The position numbers and the translations under genes are program-made. A stretch of DNA of 42,537 bases from an uncultured Prevotella sp. (GTDB lineage Bacteria > Bacteroidota > Bacteroidia > Bacteroidales > Bacteroidaceae), in the NCBI GenBank assembly GCA_944320195.1, contig CALUGP010000021.1, positions 1 through 42,537 of the forward strand. Reading direction: 5' to 3'. Shown here in pieces: positions 3,612-9,555 of this stretch; position 1 is the stretch's first letter, and every line of letters starts with the position of its first letter. Under the pieces are notes generated by a model, which saw nothing but the letters and a program-made list of their open reading frames with translations, was not told where the DNA came from and did not search any database.

Positions 3612-5396
3612 ATGAACGAAACAATCTGCAAACGAATTGAAGCCTTGCGCGAGGTGATGAAGCGCGAGGGCATGGACGCTTTCATCTTTCCCAGCACAGA
3701 CCCACACAACGGGGAGTATGTGCCGGAGCACTGGGAGGGGCGCAAGTGGATAAGCGGCTTCAACGGCTCCGCCGGAACGGCCGTGGTGACTATGGACGAT
3801 GCCGCCCTGTGGACCGACTCGCGCTATTTCCTGGCGGCCGAAGAGCAGCTGCGCGGCACGGGCTTCAGCCTGATGAAGGAGCGCATAGAGGGCACGCCGT
3901 CCATCACGAAATGGCTCGGCATGAAGCTTGCCCGGGTTGAAAGTCCTGTGGTGGGTGTCGACGGAATGGTCAACTCGGCGTCGTCTGTCGAGTCGCTTAT
4001 GCGAGAACTGCGGGCCGAAGGCGGCATAACCGTGCGCATAAACTTCGATCCGCTTGCCACAATATGGACGGACCGTCCGCCCGTGCCGCGCGACAAGGCT
4101 GTGATTCACCCCTTGGAGTATGCCGGGGAGACGTGCCGCGCCAAGCTGGAACGCATCCGAGCCGCATTGAGGGAACGCCACGCATGCGGCATGCTGGTGT
4201 CCGCGCTCGACGACATCGCTTGGACTCTCAACCTGCGCGGCACCGACGTGCACTGCAATCCGGTGTTCGTCGCATATCTCATTATAGAGCCTGAACGCGC
4301 GACATTGTTCATAAACAAGGAAAAACTGACACCCGGCGTTGAGGCTTATCTCGCCGCCGAGGGCGTGGGCACGGCCGGATATGCCGACGTGGGCAAGGCT
4401 CTTGCCGCCTATGGCGAGTACAACATCCTGATGGATGGCGACGAGACGTGCTACACATTATATAATATGCCCTCATGCCTCACGGTGGACGGGCCGTCGC
4501 CCATACCAGCGATGAAGGCCGTGAAGAACCAGACGGAGATAGAGGGCTTCCGCCGCGCCATGCTGCGCGACGGCGTTGCCATGATGAAGTTCCTGCGCTG
4601 GCTGCGCCCGGCGGTCGAGGCAGGAGGGCAGACGGAGCTGAGCGTCAGCACGAAGCTGGAGCGGCTGCGCGCCGAACAGGAGTTATACCGCGGTCTGTCG
4701 TTTGACACCATCGCTGCGTATCAGGAGCACGGGGCCATCGTTCACTACGAACCTACGCCTGAAACCGACATCCCTCTGCGTCCCGAAGGATTCCTGCTGC
4801 TTGATTCGGGGGCGCAATACGCCGACGGGACTACCGACATCACGCGCACCATAGCCCTTGGCCCGGTCACAGACGAGCAGCGTCTTGTCTACACCTTAGT
4901 GCTCAAGGGGCACATTCAGTTGGAGCTGTGCACGTTCCCCAGGGGTGCGTCTGGCACTCAGCTCGACGCCCTGGCGCGCAGGGACATGTGGTGTTACGGC
5001 TTCAACTACCTGCACGGCACGGGCCACGGCGTAGGCTCTTACCTCAACGTGCATGAAGGACCTCACCAGATCCGCATGGAATACATGCCCGCGCCGCTCG
5101 TCGAGGGCATGACCGTCACCGACGAGCCGGGCATCTACCTGCCGTCGCTCTTCGGCGTGCGCACGGAGAACACCCTGTTAATCGTGCCTTACAAGGAGAC
5201 GCAGTTCGGCCGGTTCCTCCGGTTCGAGCCGCTCACGCTCTGTCCGATAGACACCGCGCCGATAATCCGCGACATGCTTACTGCTGAAGAGGCCGCGTGG
5301 CTCAACGACTATCACAAGACCGTCTTTGACCGCCTTTCGCCTCTTCTTGACGGCGAAGACCGCGCTTGGCTGGCCAAGGCATGCGCCGCGATATAG
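3612..5396 (+). CDS. Xaa-Pro aminopeptidase (aminopeptidase P, three-domain type)
   Basis: A metallopeptidase of family M24B that removes an N-terminal residue preceding proline from peptides; cytosolic, as there is no signal peptide. The 594-residue length fits the three-domain, XPNPEP1-like form rather than the 440-residue E. coli PepP. Two creatinase-like N-terminal domains (roughly 1-310) are followed by the pita-bread catalytic domain. All five metal ligands are visible: D398 (LLLDSG), D409 (GTTDITRT), H472 (HGTGHGVG), E505 (DEPGIY) and E519 (RTENTLL). H468 in the same histidine motif is the expected proton shuttle. It has its own promoter and is followed by a copy of the palindromic repeat that could terminate it. 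Confidence 0.93.
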   Translation: MNETICKRIEALREVMKREGMDAFIFPSTDPHNGEYVPEHWEGRKWISGFNGSAGTAVVTMDDAALWTDSRYFLAAEEQLRGTGFSLMKERIEGTPSITKWLGMKLARVESPVVGVDGMVNSASSVESLMRELRAEGGITVRINFDPLATIWTDRPPVPRDKAVIHPLEYAGETCRAKLERIRAALRERHACGMLVSALDDIAWTLNLRGTDVHCNPVFVAYLIIEPERATLFINKEKLTPGVEAYLAAEGVGTAGYADVGKALAAYGEYNILMDGDETCYTLYNMPSCLTVDGPSPIPAMKAVKNQTEIEGFRRAMLRDGVAMMKFLRWLRPAVEAGGQTELSVSTKLERLRAEQELYRGLSFDTIAAYQEHGAIVHYEPTPETDIPLRPEGFLLLDSGAQYADGTTDITRTIALGPVTDEQRLVYTLVLKGHIQLELCTFPRGASGTQLDALARRDMWCYGFNYLHGTGHGVGSYLNVHEGPHQIRMEYMPAPLVEGMTVTDEPGIYLPSLFGVRTENTLLIVPYKETQFGRFLRFEPLTLCPIDTAPIIRDMLTAEEAAWLNDYHKTVFDRLSPLLDGEDRAWLAKACAAI

Positions 5397-5435
5397 CCAC
5401 TTTTTTGCCTGGTTGCAATGCTGTTTACCGCTGCC

Positions 5436-5544
5436 GCGTAACTGCTTGATAATCAGTGCTGTTGTAAAAGGCCGTCTTTTGCCTTCTAAAAGACGGCCTT
5501 TTAGCGTGTCGTTGACGGCCTTTTGCAATGCGAAAGGCCGTCAA
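5436..5544 (+). repeat. GGCCGTC palindromic repeat, copy 2
   Basis: Begins with a conserved lead-in (TAACTGCTTGATAATCAG) shared with copies 3 and 4. Then AAAAGGCCGTCTTTT (5466-5480) pairs perfectly with AAAAGACGGCCTTTT across a 7-base loop. A second stem follows, GACGGCCTTTTGCAATGC then GAAAGGCCGTC. The T-run after the first stem makes it terminator-like. It begins 40 bases after the aminopeptidase stop. Confidence 0.88.
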
Positions 5545-5545
5545 T

Positions 5546-5847
5546 TGGTTCATCCGCATTTTAGGTGTATAGTATTACTGTACCTTCTTTTGTCTTTGTG
5601 ATAGCATTTTATGTACGCCTCCTACTTTAATCCAGGCAGTCGGTAACCGTCATGCCGCACTCCGATGCGGCATCCAGAAAACACCCGATACGCCAAACGA
5701 AACAGGCTGCATACACTGGATGCCGCATCGGAGTGCGGCATGACAGTTACCGACAACCTGGATTGTGGCAGGATGTATTTGCAAATGAAATAATGTGTCA
5801 CATTTGATAGAGCCATATGTCCATCCAAAAGGTTTGCGGATGAACCA
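5546..5847. repeat. Nested inverted-repeat element (REPIN/MITE-like)
   Basis: Two inverted repeats share the same exact centre, 5696.5. The outer one is 13 bases and perfect (5546-5558 against 5835-5847). The inner one has 49-base arms (5629-5677 against 5716-5764) with 46 of 49 matches. Each inner arm itself contains a small hairpin, GCCGCA-ctccga-TGCGGC. The segments between inner and outer arms are both 70 bases but only weakly complementary. No coding sequence is inside. Confidence 0.75.
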
Positions 5848-5893
5848 TTTGTTTAATTGTATTTTGCGGTTTGAAAGTCTTTGCTCGAACTCT

Positions 5894-6096
5894 AAATTAA
5901 CGCGAGTTCGGCATAAGGAATCATCTTTCCAAATATAGAAATTCTTACCGCTTTTCTTTTCTGCCGCTCAGTGTCAAGTCATCATTGCCTTAACGGCGAC
6001 TTTCAGTTCTGCTTTTCAGCGGAATGACGACTCGCCACCGACTTGCAAAAAACTGATAAGTGTGACATTTCTGTTATGCCGAACTCGTGTTAAATT
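5894..6096. mobile_element. MITE-like element with 23-base terminal inverted repeats
   Basis: The left end (5894-5916) and right end (6074-6096) are inverted repeats matching at 21 of 23 positions, including a perfect inner 14 bases, CGAGTTCGGCATAA. The 203-base element has no coding capacity. Its size and structure suit a non-autonomous transposable element or a long-loop repeat. No target-site duplication could be identified with confidence. Confidence 0.5.
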
Positions 6097-6253
6097 ATGT
6101 CGATTATATTTCTGTTTGCACGTTTGGCATTGATAATTAGGATTTTCCGTTCACTTTGGATTGCAAATGTTCCGGTACAGATGGGTTTTCATATTATGAA
6201 ATACAGATTGGTTATTTTTTTTGTTAAATCGTAATTTGTTTTGCTTTTATTGC

Positions 6254-6284
6254 TTTGATTCCCAAATATTTATGACTATTTTTG
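6254..6284 (+). promoter_or_regulatory. Promoter of the first four-helix membrane protein gene
   Basis: TTTG (6254-6257), 19 bases, TATTTTTG (6277-6284). The surrounding sequence (TTGCTTTGATT upstream, TATTTTTGCGGAAAAAG at the -7 end) is nearly repeated at 7029-7070 before the DUF1573 gene, suggesting a shared origin and shared regulation. Confidence 0.75.
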
Positions 6285-6345
6285 CGGAAAAAGAAATAGG
6301 CCGGAGTGTATCGGCATATATGCTTTTTGTTAAAAATAAGGTATT

Positions 6346-6795
6346 ATGAAAGAGTTGTTCTTTTCTTTTCTTTTGGGTCTGGGCTTTACGATAGTGGCGT
6401 GTACGTTTAACACGTTTTCATCGATTTTCGTTTCAGCGTTGGGCGGTTTGCCGCTTGCCGCCGTGGCTTATTGGCGCCTCTCGTATGTAGGCAAGGCCGA
6501 GTTGGGCGTGGGTAAGCATGCCGCGGTGTATATGTTGGGATGGTTTTCAATCTTTTTGGCTGTCATATTGCCGCTCTTGAACAGCACGATGGGGTCTGTC
6601 ATGATTTACGCCAGCTGGGGCTTGGCGGCGGCTTTGGCGTGCCTGTGCTATAAATACAGGAGCCGGTTGGCCGTGGTTGTTGTCGCCTCTCTTGTGGTGT
6701 GGTGGTTTTTTGTTACGGCGGTGCTCCCACTGTGGTCGCGCTATTTGCTTTCAGTGCCTGACGAAGTGAGAGACAGACTGATATTCTTTGGATGA
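6346..6795 (+). CDS. Four-helix membrane protein, paralogue A
   Basis: A 149-residue integral membrane protein whose family I do not recognise. Hydrophobic segments lie near residues 5-22, 27-45, 60-80, 84-102 and 108-128, giving about four or five helices. It is about half identical, without gaps over most of its length, to the protein encoded at 8256-8711. The best conserved core is ALGGLPLAAVAYWR, with MLGWF and GSVMIY also shared. It has its own promoter and is followed by repeat copy 3. Context suggests a partner of the fulvocin-like lipoprotein, perhaps a self-protection (immunity) or export/maturation protein, but nothing in the sequence proves this. The tail (about 20 residues) diverges from its paralogue. 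Confidence 0.8.
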   Translation: MKELFFSFLLGLGFTIVACTFNTFSSIFVSALGGLPLAAVAYWRLSYVGKAELGVGKHAAVYMLGWFSIFLAVILPLLNSTMGSVMIYASWGLAAALACLCYKYRSRLAVVVVASLVVWWFFVTAVLPLWSRYLLSVPDEVRDRLIFFG

Positions 6796-6841
6796 AACAA
6801 TGCTGATATCCTTTGCGGCGAAAGCGGCCATCAGCCGCTCC

Positions 6842-6951
6842 CGTGTAACTGCCTGATAATCAGTGATGTTGCAAAAGGCCGTCTTTTAGAAGATAAAAGA
6901 CGGCCTTTTAGCGTGCAGTTGACGGCCTTTTGCAATGCGAAAGGCCGTCAA
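6842..6951 (+). repeat. GGCCGTC palindromic repeat, copy 3
   Basis: Close copy of the element at 5436-5544: the same lead-in (TAACTGCCTGATAATCAG), the same first stem AAAAGGCCGTCTTTT and its complement around an 8-base loop, then the second stem with the TGCAATGC spacer. It lies 47 bases after the paralogue A stop and likely terminates that transcript. Confidence 0.88.
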
Positions 6952-7031
6952 TCAGATAATAATAGTCTTTATACATCCAAAGTCTTTGTAGCTAATTTAT
7001 GTTAAACTAAAACTATTCCTTTTCGCATTGC

Positions 7032-7062
7032 TTTGATTTAAAGCAAAAAATGCTTATTTTTG
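7032..7062 (+). promoter_or_regulatory. Promoter of the DUF1573/fulvocin-like operon
   Basis: TTTG (7032-7035), 19 bases, TATTTTTG (7055-7062). It closely resembles the promoter at 6254-6284. The -7 box ends only 12 bases before the ATG at 7075, so the leader should be extremely short. This also rules out the alternative TTG start at 7060, which lies within the -7 box. Confidence 0.72.
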
Positions 7063-7074
7063 CGGAAAAAGGAA

Positions 7075-7512
7075 ATGAATAGATGCTTTAACCTTTTAGC
7101 TTTGTTTTTCTTGATTTTGATATGTAGCTCATGTAACAAGAAGGGCAATAGCTCACCTGGTGATGAACCGTATCTCATAAATAAAGATAGTGCTGCGGTT
7201 TTGAACATAAGTTCAAAGATTGTTGATTTTGGAAAAGTAAATACGTTTCGACAGGAAATAGTTGAATTGAATGTCAAAATAGCAAATTCTGGAGCAAAGC
7301 CTCTGTCTTTGTATAAGGCAGATGTGTCGTGTGGTTGCATGAAGGTTGAGTTTGACAAAAAGGTGTTGCGTGCTGGTGAAAGTTCAAAAATTAGAATATT
7401 AGTACATACAGAAGGTAACGATGGATTCTTCAACAAGGCTGTTTTCATACAGTCAAACGCAAAAAATAATCCGGAAATCATCAGAGTTAAGGGTGAATTC
7501 TATAAAGACTAA
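7075..7512 (+). CDS. DUF1573-domain lipoprotein
   Basis: A 145-residue predicted lipoprotein. A hydrophobic signal ends in a lipobox ICSSC with the lipidated cysteine at residue 20. The rest is an Ig-like DUF1573 domain: DFGKVNTFRQEIVELNVKI, then the family's typical CGC segment (DVSCGCMKV), then the GESSKIRI and FFNKAVFIQSNA strands. DUF1573 proteins are common in Bacteroidota and their role is unknown. The start at 7075 is chosen because upstream codons lie in the promoter. The gene is AT-rich (17 of 60 bases are G or C at 7201-7260) compared with its flanks. It is 13 bases from the fulvocin-like gene, so the two are very likely one operon and the protein may help display or mature its neighbour. 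Confidence 0.85.
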   Translation: MNRCFNLLALFFLILICSSCNKKGNSSPGDEPYLINKDSAAVLNISSKIVDFGKVNTFRQEIVELNVKIANSGAKPLSLYKADVSCGCMKVEFDKKVLRAGESSKIRILVHTEGNDGFFNKAVFIQSNAKNNPEIIRVKGEFYKD

Positions 7513-7525
7513 ATAATTTGTTGCT

Positions 7526-8221
7526 ATGAGAAAAAATTTGTTTTATGTTTTTATAAGCATTATAAGTGCTTTTGGGCTTTCATCTTGCTCAGATCAGGAT
7601 GATATGGTATTCAGTTGCGATGAAAGTGTGAATCTGTGGGCAAAAGAGAATATTGCGGAGATTCGTGAGATGAATAGAGCTGGATGGAAAACTTTGCCTG
7701 CATCGAAAAAACGTGCTGCTTATGTGGCATTCACGCCGCAACAAAAAATCTCATTTTGGAAGGAGAAGCTGACAAACGTAATGTCTATGGACTGGACTAA
7801 AGAAGAACAGGCCCATATAAAACTTGTTTATGATTTTGTAAATGAGCATCCTGATTTCTTTGGCGGTGACGGTTTGACGGATGAGCAGCTGAATGTGTTG
7901 GATCTGTTCTTTTATAAATGGGTTGATGTTGCCCGGAATGAGTTGGGGTGGGATATGAAACTAATTGCTGCAATAGCGGCTTATGGTGGCGATTTCGAAA
8001 TTGATGCTTCTACAAAGGGACGTAAACGTGTTGTTACGGATATTTTCGATGATCGTTTGGACGATATGAATAGTTGTCATTGTAATACGGGGATGCTTTC
8101 AGACTTTTGCAATGTTACAGGGGAGGGGATGTGTGAAGACGTAAAATGTGAAGGAAGCGATTGGGGCTGTGGTTGGATATGGCTTGACGATTGTAATGGT
8201 AGATGTTCCGAGTTTTTGTAA
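7526..8221 (+). CDS. Fulvocin C-related cysteine-rich lipoprotein
   Basis: A 231-residue lipoprotein (lipobox LSSC, Cys21). Residues about 30-180 look helical and hydrophilic, with many W and aromatic residues. The last 51 residues form a compact domain with eight cysteines at 184, 186, 195, 203, 208, 215, 223 and 227, in a CxC...C...C...C...GCGWxW...CNGxC layout. From memory, the Myxococcus fulvus bacteriocin fulvocin C is about 45 residues, also has eight cysteines, starts CxC, and has a GCGxGW...CNG end. So this domain is probably its relative, and the protein may be a tethered precursor. Bacteroidota proteins annotated as fulvocin C-related are known. Whether it is antibacterial is unproven. 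It is AT-rich like the upstream gene, and 34 bases separate it from the membrane protein gene downstream. Confidence 0.8.
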   Translation: MRKNLFYVFISIISAFGLSSCSDQDDMVFSCDESVNLWAKENIAEIREMNRAGWKTLPASKKRAAYVAFTPQQKISFWKEKLTNVMSMDWTKEEQAHIKLVYDFVNEHPDFFGGDGLTDEQLNVLDLFFYKWVDVARNELGWDMKLIAAIAAYGGDFEIDASTKGRKRVVTDIFDDRLDDMNSCHCNTGMLSDFCNVTGEGMCEDVKCEGSDWGCGWIWLDDCNGRCSEFL

Positions 8222-8255
8222 TGTAATTGTTGTTTTTTATAAAAAGATATTGCTT

Positions 8256-8711
8256 ATGAAAGAGTATTTTGTTACGTTTTGCATCGCGTTTTTCATGACC
8301 GTTTTCGCATGCTTCTTTAATTATTTCCAGTCTTTACCAATCGCAGCACTGGGCGGTCTTCCTCTTGCAGCCGTGGCATATTGGCGCATGGCTGTGGTGA
8401 ATAAGGCCGGATTGAGCCTCACCAGCCATACAGTGGCGTTCATGCTGGGCTGGTTCTTGATATTTGCAGCGGTTATTTTCCCGATGTTGAAGAGCACACT
8501 GGGCAGTGTTATGATATATTGCAGTTGGGGACTGGCGGCTCTTTTGGCCTGCATAGTTTACAGATTCAGGCGCAAGATTGTAGCTTCGGCTGTGGTCTCG
8601 GCTGCTGTGTGGCTTCTGTTCGTCACGTTCGCCCTGCCTGCTTGGGAGGATTATCTGAAGACTTGGCCGAAGAATAAGGCCGGGTGGGTGATGCCGTGGA
8701 ACGAGCATTAG
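8256..8711 (+). CDS. Four-helix membrane protein, paralogue B
   Basis: A 151-residue membrane protein, paralogue of the one at 6346-6795. The frame is open from 8148, overlapping the fulvocin-like gene. The ATG at 8256 is chosen because it aligns with the paralogue's first residues (MKEYF against MKELF) and places a hydrophobic helix at the N-terminus. Shared segments are ALGGLPLAAVAYWR, FMLGWF, LGSVMIY, SWGLAA and FVT..LP.W. The C-terminal 20 residues are polar and differ. It is the last gene of the DUF1573/fulvocin-like operon and is followed by repeat copy 4. Its tight linkage to a bacteriocin-like gene makes an immunity or maturation role a reasonable guess; the family is not recognised. 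Confidence 0.8.
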   Translation: MKEYFVTFCIAFFMTVFACFFNYFQSLPIAALGGLPLAAVAYWRMAVVNKAGLSLTSHTVAFMLGWFLIFAAVIFPMLKSTLGSVMIYCSWGLAALLACIVYRFRRKIVASAVVSAAVWLLFVTFALPAWEDYLKTWPKNKAGWVMPWNEH

Positions 8712-8819
8712 TCACGGCAGGACGGTCTGCGGCATTCAAGCGTTATGCCGGTTTGATAACTGTCTGCATCGCGTTCAATCTTTGTTGGTTGAAGACTGTA
8801 CAGAGACGTGCCGCATATG

Positions 8820-8927
8820 CGTAACTGCTTGATAATCAAAGTAGCTATAAAAGACCGTGTTTTGTGTCGCGAAACATGGCCTTTTAGCGTGCGTTTGATG
8901 GCCTTTTATTTTCCAAAAGGTCATCAA
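8820..8927 (+). repeat. GGCCGTC palindromic repeat, copy 4 (degenerate)
   Basis: Keeps the lead-in GTAACTGCTTGATAATCA and the TGGCCTTTTAGCGTGCGTTTGATGG layout of copies 2 and 3. The arms have drifted (AAAAGACCGTGTTTT paired with AAACATGGCCTTTT; GATGGCCTTTT paired with AAAAGGTCATC). It begins 109 bases after the paralogue B stop. Confidence 0.75.
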
Positions 8928-9038
8928 ATGCATTTGTTTAAGTAGCTGTACAAAATTAACCGATATTATTATTTTATTCAGTTTTTCTTTACATCTTTGC
9001 CATTATCTTGCACGCTCTTCCGGGCTGTTTTCTGAGTA

Positions 9039-9129
9039 TAAGGATTTGTAATCCGCTAAATGGTTGATTGTCGATGCTTTTGCGGATTCGAATCCTTATA
9101 TTGGTTAACGGCGGATTGCAAGTCCGCCG
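9039..9129. repeat. REP-like inverted repeats
   Basis: TAAGGATTTGTAATCCGC (9039-9056) is an inverted repeat of GCGGATTCGAATCCTTA (9082-9098). A perfect hairpin follows, CGGCGGA (9109-9115) with TCCGCCG (9123-9129). All three contain the GCGGATT/AATCCGC core, typical of short extragenic palindromes. Confidence 0.6.
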
Positions 9130-9267
9130 TGACGTGAACCTTGGAACGCAGGCTTGTCTCGCGTCTTAGCTGTGCGGCTGTTGTTATGGAAACACGGCTG
9201 CCGTAAAAGTCGTCCGGCGGTTTTATAAGGAAATATTACTTCGGTTTGATAAAAAACACTTTAATAT

Positions 9268-9299
9268 TTTGCAAATCAGAAAAATAAGCCGTAACTTTG
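9268..9299 (+). promoter_or_regulatory. rpsU: Promoter of rpsU
   Basis: TTTG (9268-9271), 20 bases, TAACTTTG (9292-9299), a full Bacteroidota promoter match. The leader before the rpsU ATG at 9364 would be about 58 bases. Confidence 0.78.
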
Positions 9300-9363
9300 C
9301 AGGCGCTAATAAAAGCACCGATGTAGAAATAAGTTTAACACATTAAATAATAAAGGACAAAAC

Positions 9364-9555
9364 ATGATTATCGTACCAGTTAAAGACGGTGAGAACATCG
9401 AGAGAGCGTTGAAGAAGTTTAAGAGGAAATTCGAGAAGACAGGCGTTGTTAAGGAGCTCCGTGCACGTCAGCAGTACACAAAGCCTTCTGTCTTGAAGCG
9501 TCTCAAGATGCAGCATGCCATTTACGTCCAGAAGCTGAGAACTGCCGAGGATTAA
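9364..9555 (+). CDS. rpsU: 30S ribosomal protein S21
   Basis: S21 is a small basic protein of the 30S platform. In Bacteroidota it takes part in holding the 16S rRNA 3' end with S18 and S6, which is linked to the weak use of Shine-Dalgarno sequences in this phylum. The 63-residue protein begins MIIVPVKDGENIERALKKF and is highly basic in the middle (KRKFEKTGVVKELRARQQY), typical of the family. It opens a transcript that continues into a tyrosine recombinase and hpf, an order recalled as common in Bacteroidota. Confidence 0.97.
   Translation: MIIVPVKDGENIERALKKFKRKFEKTGVVKELRARQQYTKPSVLKRLKMQHAIYVQKLRTAED

Follow-up and report, generated by a model that had tools for sequence, protein, structure and literature searches.

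Fulvocin C of Myxococcus fulvus is reportedly a free 45-residue peptide that was purified as a bacteriocin and sequenced as a peptide by Tsai and Hirsch in 1981. We take it to be the only member of its family known as a bacteriocin, and the letters used for it in every comparison here are its presumed sequence. The family line of the NCBIfam entry NF033852 ("bacteriocin fulvocin C-related") is silent on operon, lipoprotein topology, and precursor relationship. Fulvocin C is cited in PMC8708641, and the family name occurs as a search word in PMC12333140; the accessible portions of these open-licence papers, which name fulvocin C, give no gene or precursor.

Two other described systems share features with the locus reported here, which lies in a 42,537-nucleotide stretch of DNA from an uncultured Prevotella sp. 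(the window, by which we mean the whole stretch analyzed). According to the accessible parts of PMC8546572, the SitA lipoprotein toxins of Myxococcus have nuclease tails and are delivered by outer-membrane exchange. The lipoprotein of the window is likewise lipid-anchored, with a predicted N-terminal escort part and C-terminal active part, but its tail is a disulfide-type peptide, and no C-terminal polymorphic nuclease was matched in NCBIfam or Pfam. Pediocin PA-1 has PedC, a putative thiol-disulfide oxidoreductase (PMC4919988, accessible parts). Our locus resembles it, by description, in that a bacteriocin-type gene has a disulfide-enzyme-type companion; pediocin PA-1, however, belongs to another organism group, and the partner in the window lacks a thioredoxin domain.

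Operon and lipoprotein of the window

Three genes at 7075-8711 on the plus strand form one unit, encoding a DUF1573 lipoprotein, a 231-residue lipoprotein, and a 151-residue membrane protein. A preliminary description, made from the sequence alone, had placed the three reading frames at the positions listed here, and these were borne out.

6250-6284: sister promoter-like site, before the upstream membrane-protein paralogue
6346-6795, plus strand: membrane-protein paralogue, 149 aa, 54% identity over 139 residues
7028-7062, plus strand: promoter-like site of Bacteroidota type, TTG at 7033 and TATTTTTG at 7055-7062
7075-7512, plus strand: DUF1573 lipoprotein, 145 aa from ATG, with a CGC motif and CNKKGN (PF07610, 71.3 bits; gathering cut-off 26.1)
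7526-8221, plus strand: fulvocin C-related lipoprotein, 231 aa (NF033852, 116.5 bits over residues 62-228; curated cut-off 35)
7526-7603, plus strand: signal peptide, lipobox at Cys21, and acidic residues 22-26 (SDQDD), by sequence, resembling SDDDD of B. fragilis
7622-8020, plus strand: helical region, residues about 33-165, helical by look and common to relatives of the putative fulvocin C precursor
8066-8218, plus strand: eight-cysteine C-terminal domain, residues 181-231, by the tail profile against the presumed fulvocin C sequence
8256-8711, plus strand: small membrane protein of 151 aa, akin to the membrane portion of certain membrane-anchored TlpA/ResA-like thioredoxins
8811-8933, plus strand: terminator-like element at the operon end, the third copy of the 118-nt repeat D1, with a hairpin at 8889-8933

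The promoter-like site of the operon reads TAnnTTTG, which we take to be the Bacteroidota-type consensus, with TTG 22 nt ahead. Because TAnnTTTG by itself occurs 16 times on the plus strand of the window, the evidence for a promoter is not the motif but a repeat: the direct repeat D4, at 6272 and 7050 and 88% identical, has a copy at each promoter-like site. Similarly, copies of D1 at 5428, 6835, and 8811 follow a 594-aa peptidase gene, the paralogue, and the operon, respectively, and the hairpin in the last copy has a 19-pair stem. Generic promoter and terminator scans of the window gave no excess over shuffles (3 terminator sites compared with 3.5 in shuffles), so the two sister transcription units rest on these repeats, and the paralogue is probably a transcription unit of its own. 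The membrane-protein gene is thus duplicated together with promoter-like and terminator-like DNA, and DUF1573 and the fulvocin-like gene accompany only the second copy. We also observed that a TTG at 7060 is an alternative start that would lengthen the DUF1573 protein by 5 aa. The 8256-8711 frame sits inside a longer frame opening at GTG.

The preliminary description had proposed a link between the 231-residue lipoprotein and fulvocin C, together with a profile search whose failure would refute it. Run with the whole protein, the search returned NF033852 far above its cut-off, as the sole family over cut-off for this protein in NCBIfam and Pfam (Pfam itself gave none), and the match covers the tail. 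Since it spans residues 62-228, the helical part and the eight-cysteine tail are both members of the family. The cysteines, at residues 184, 186, 195, 203, 208, 215, 223, and 227, follow the order CxC...C...C...C...CGW...CNGxC, which confirms the resemblance noticed earlier, and the NF033852 score places it beyond chance. Glycines are also conserved in the tail, as is, for the most part, an aromatic turn, a pattern like that of folded disulfide peptides. PDB sequence searches gave nothing significant, and hits to Spy-like chaperones were set aside (E 0.7). A ninth non-lipid cysteine, Cys31 (codon 7616-7618), lies soon after the anchor and is invariant in an alignment of seven sequences (A3); relatives in the order of Myxococcus have a look-alike near the mature N-terminus.

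The lipobox, LSSC, ends at Cys21 and is followed by the acidic stretch. In B. fragilis, SDDDD is a proposed surface export signal, with a polar residue at +2 and then acidic residues (PMC5080379, accessible parts). Among 16 relatives of the own-family type, including that of B. finegoldii, two without a recognized lipobox were dropped, and 12 of the remaining 14 had two or more acidic residues in positions +2 to +6, compared with 5 of 29 background lipoproteins that were crudely called and include some membrane proteins; for the window the count started from a cysteine farther on, whereas three acidic residues follow the true lipobox. A stricter rule over all 31 family genes found 18 lipoboxes, with at least two acidic residues in 10, and the acidic signal is therefore not general. 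The tethered and possibly surface-directed lipoprotein of the preliminary description agrees with the lipobox at Cys21 and with the acidic stretch from +2 to +6. The DUF1573 partner has basic residues after its lipid cysteine (CNKKGN). Judging from these signals, the fulvocin-like lipoprotein may face outward and the DUF1573 protein inward.

Full-length relatives from the Myxococcus order

Genome contigs were scanned with the presumed fulvocin C sequence, which gave at least 593 candidates, and among the matches listed one was confirmed, in Myxococcus sp. CA023 (L065). Its gene is 90% identical to the presumed sequence, which supports the letters used. This copy (8001-8127) is interrupted: NF033852 matches it in two pieces in two frames, at 18.9 and 17.2 bits, both below cut-off. 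For this reason, intact relatives were read in its place. In the order of Myxococcus sp. CA023, 17 genes in 14 of 145 genomes scored over the NF033852 cut-off and covered about the whole profile, and two genomes carried several family copies. These proteins have a signal-peptide-like start, then the helical region, and then the tail; by eye, most starts resemble ordinary signal peptides, and that of L093 may have a lipobox.

We compared the two parts separately, and we quote bits and not E-values because the E-values of these profile tests come from tiny databases. A window-side helical profile built from 20 regions matched all 17 relatives (25.5-51.9 bits), and a separately built tail profile from 21 tails, from which ten family genes without the tail pattern were excluded, also matched 17 of 17 (24.5-37.3 bits). 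In the reverse tests, 17 of 20 helical regions and 20 of 21 tails were matched. Against the presumed fulvocin C sequence, the tail profile scored 24.1 bits, a value reached by none of 2000 cysteine-keeping shuffles (maximum 15.9), which rules out a chance likeness of cysteine spacing. In a midpoint-rooted tree of 41 sequences, from which seven genes were excluded, the 17 proteins form one clade (support 94) beside the window-side protein L037 (98).

The closest relative of fulvocin C was L092, whose tail is identical to the presumed peptide sequence at 33 of 43 positions and is preceded by the same helical region and a signal-peptide-like start without a lipobox. With this architecture and tail identity, fulvocin C appears to be the tail cut from a prepro-protein of this kind, which is the simplest reading that homology offers; L092-like proteins would then be, we infer, the fulvocin C precursor. 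It is well supported by the sequence comparisons that the window protein is a homologue of full-length precursors of the fulvocin C type. What makes the link stronger than first suggested is that the order of a Myxococcus contains full-length relatives that carry the helical region. In common with fulvocin C, the window protein has the CG(x)GW turn and eight cysteines whose order is almost unchanged; in common with the full-length relatives, it has the helical region. On the other hand, it is a lipoprotein whose acidic stretch resembles an export signal, and its gene belongs to an operon, whereas fulvocin C is reportedly a free peptide; the presumed peptide sequence ends in CACNG, compared with CNGxC in the relatives.

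Thiol-type neighbors and the membrane protein

Which genes accompany the family? Its genes were examined in loci where genes were called by a simple ORF rule. DUF1573 lay within 2.5 kb of a family gene in 12 of 27 family-holding genomes, where 0.19 would be expected from the 99 DUF1573 matches there (the search covered 28 genomes, the 28th, G004, being without the fulvocin family). Among 14 named control genomes, DUF1573 was picked up in Bacteroides ihuae only. The DUF1573 lipoprotein itself, as first described, was confirmed by Pfam; NF041425 (the OS_HP2 seleno-family) scored 44.7 bits against it, under the cut-off of 100. MauE is present in loci L036 and L054, and in L053 (5178-6092) MauE and DUF1573 form one fused protein. 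With a CGC motif and with MauE and thioredoxin genes as neighbors, the DUF1573 protein gave no support to its earlier casting as a display partner. Searches of the open-licence literature found nothing joining MauE, DoxX, and disulfide, and nothing for NVEALA.

Of the 31 family genes, 22 have a membrane protein in the neighboring slot, no more than 0.7 kb away and on the same strand; the 31 include fragments and tail variants, none of which was dropped from this count. With DUF1573 in 12 of 27 genomes and the slot protein beside 22 of 31 genes, the three-gene co-occurrence that the preliminary description wished to see surveyed held once divergent relatives were counted. Against it, in a sample of the own genome and 59 relatives, a single relative, G010, had the lipoprotein, and a single different one, G004, had the window-type membrane protein. 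The G010 lipoprotein is without the cysteine tail and adjoins a small membrane protein of another type; G004 has the membrane protein without the lipoprotein.

The 22 slot proteins comprise seven small ones without thioredoxin (that of the window included), four of type tm1, seven of type tm2, and four of the L055-L058 type. The 11 tm1 and tm2 proteins carry a CxxC thioredoxin domain, and the L055-L058 type has a thioredoxin-like end without CxxC (93.6%, hhalign). The 151-aa protein, which by its hydrophobic stretches appears to have several membrane helices and has no Pfam or NCBIfam family over cut-off, is related to the membrane half of certain membrane-anchored TlpA/ResA-like thioredoxins (e.g., L064:12750-13757), but, unlike them, it ends after the membrane part and has neither thioredoxin domain nor CxxC. 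In hhalign comparisons, the window type matched the small type smB at 94.5% and smB matched tm1 at 98.6%, with 43.1% over 147 columns for the window type against tm1 directly and 0.03% against tm2; the remaining values were 92.6% for tm1 and the L055-L058 type, 39.9% for smB and tm2, and 35.3% for tm1 and tm2. In the controls, the small and thioredoxin types reached at most 0.57% against MauE and an O-antigen-ligase-like set, 30 column-shuffled comparisons at most 0.24%, and the highest unrelated pair 5.1%. These unequal values tie the window protein to the tm1 branch, and it is only likely, on profile similarity, that tm2 belongs to the same family.

The membrane protein had been proposed to be an immunity protein. 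The hhalign link to thioredoxin-bearing slot proteins, through their membrane half, weakened this and demoted the plain immunity reading; such a kinship favors a redox or maturation partner. A wider form, in which the membrane protein gives immunity to the toxin and those of its relatives that carry a thioredoxin domain neutralize the toxin by reducing it, is one that we consider distinctly unlikely. Bacteriocin immunity genes are often adjacent and co-directional, as the membrane protein is in the 22 of 31 cases, and the window has two copies of it; on the other hand, its homology is to a thioredoxin-bearing membrane half, none was seen beside the Myxococcus-order relatives, and membrane-family matches also occur without a called fulvocin family. 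Of 251 own-family genomes, 19 had such matches, and in 12 of the 19 no fulvocin gene was called. The overlap of seven genomes, with 0.98 expected, is partly circular because the query alignment includes rows from sampled genomes; both searches probably covered the same 251 genomes, to judge from their shared handles. As for the 12, the G004 locus was viewed, and 10 of the 11 other loci (pieces of 4.3-9.5 kb) gave no fulvocin match; in the remaining one, L114, a fulvocin-type gene is present as a 40-aa fragment (1358-1480). For two of the eleven, G770 and G795 (L121 and L118), our profiles of small and membrane-half proteins did not bear out the membrane match.

Could the lipoprotein be an envelope redox protein and no toxin, its tail carrying electrons or disulfides with DUF1573, the membrane-anchored thioredoxin, and MauE? 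Thiol-type genes are the commonest neighbors found. Furthermore, in L055-L058, which are one clade and are counted as one event, tails of 5-6 cysteines stand beside thioredoxin-like proteins that lack CxxC, as if one constraint had been lifted from both. However, the glycines and aromatic turn of the tail resemble a folded disulfide peptide, the distribution is sporadic, and the Myxococcus-order relatives, including the one closest to the purified bacteriocin, have no thiol neighbors in the stretches fetched. We regard this reading as rather unlikely. It is likely, all the same, that the neighbors handle the disulfides of the tail.

Distribution and proposed mode of action

The NF033852 family is rare: it was found in 4 of 395 genomes of a phylum sample (3 over cut-off) and in 13 of 251 of the own family, the own genome being included in both; two other families gave 11 of 249 and 1 of 92, and each of these samples was centered on a known holder. 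Phage records gave no match, and viral contigs held no DNA matching the peptide patterns of the window protein. Plasmid records gave one match, in Bacteroides finegoldii, with the gene order DUF1573, fulvocin-related gene, TlpA. In the window, the peptidase and rpsU lie 4.0 kb apart (5396-9364), and the gap is 0.1-3.7 kb in 8 of the 12 same-genus relatives showing both; tblastn at 1e-4 found no relative of an operon gene in the 12 same-genus stretches. The operon seems either to have arrived here or to have persisted locally, and the gap is a possible insertion hot spot. Sporadic presence, a plasmid copy, multiple copies, and interrupted copies fit antagonism genes.

The tail varies among loci. 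L059, L060, and L061 have the helical region and no cysteine tail, which implies an independent use for the helical part. L047, L048, and L063 have the helical region followed by a different, cysteine-poor tail (CFWC or CLVC) and share the neighbor cluster CL6. Cluster CL3 occurs in nine loci (L049-L053 and L055-L058), and one of its members contains TPRs and matches O-antigen ligase below the cut-off. Six loci (L051, L053, L055, L057, L058, and L062) have TPR proteins belonging to cluster CL4, the last of them without a fulvocin-like gene. Small cysteine-rich domains are often signals or protease inhibitors, and with CL4 proteins near several family loci, the tail might be a peptide signal or protease inhibitor shed from the cell surface. 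The window, however, has no CL4 member within 6 kb, and neither inhibitor families nor pheromone families were matched in NCBIfam, Pfam, and PDB searches; this is the kind of explanation that we would hardly expect to hold.

The reading that we put forward, and to which we give about an even chance, is that of a lipoprotein related to the fulvocin C prepro-bacteriocin, bound to the surface or to vesicles, whose disulfides are matured by thiol partners and whose tail strikes neighboring bacteria. The helical part would serve as a pro-region or escort. The four disulfides of the tail would form in the periplasm with the help of thiol-active partners: the DUF1573 lipoprotein with its CGC motif, the membrane protein, in whose slot other loci have a membrane-anchored thioredoxin, and, at some loci, MauE. 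After this, the fulvocin-like lipoprotein would reach the cell surface or vesicles, and the tail could act on neighboring bacteria either tethered or after cleavage of the linker at about residues 166-183. Action against bacteria is the most likely use by analogy with one characterized family member. Against this pro-bacteriocin reading, the window operon lacks a thioredoxin domain though the tail keeps eight cysteines, and the Myxococcus-order loci, in the stretches fetched, have no partner gene in common except among close kin. A gene downstream of L092 is also found in the genome of L065, in the cluster of L092 and L110.

More broadly, there might be a class of surface-tethered disulfide bacteriocins in the phylum of the window and in myxobacteria, a suggestion that we make tentatively and consider somewhat doubtful. 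Each would be a pro-bacteriocin with a lipid anchor, displayed through lipoprotein export and matured by a thiol relay of its own (DUF1573 CGC, membrane-anchored thioredoxin, and MauE); some lineages would have pared the thioredoxin down to the membrane half, which perhaps became the immunity factor.

With these results, the bacteriocin of 1981 gains a gene family and a testable operon. If the proposed reading is true, the fulvocin C precursor, its family, and the lipid-anchored form would become directly testable, and the DUF1573, MauE, and membrane-thioredoxin genes would gain a candidate substrate.
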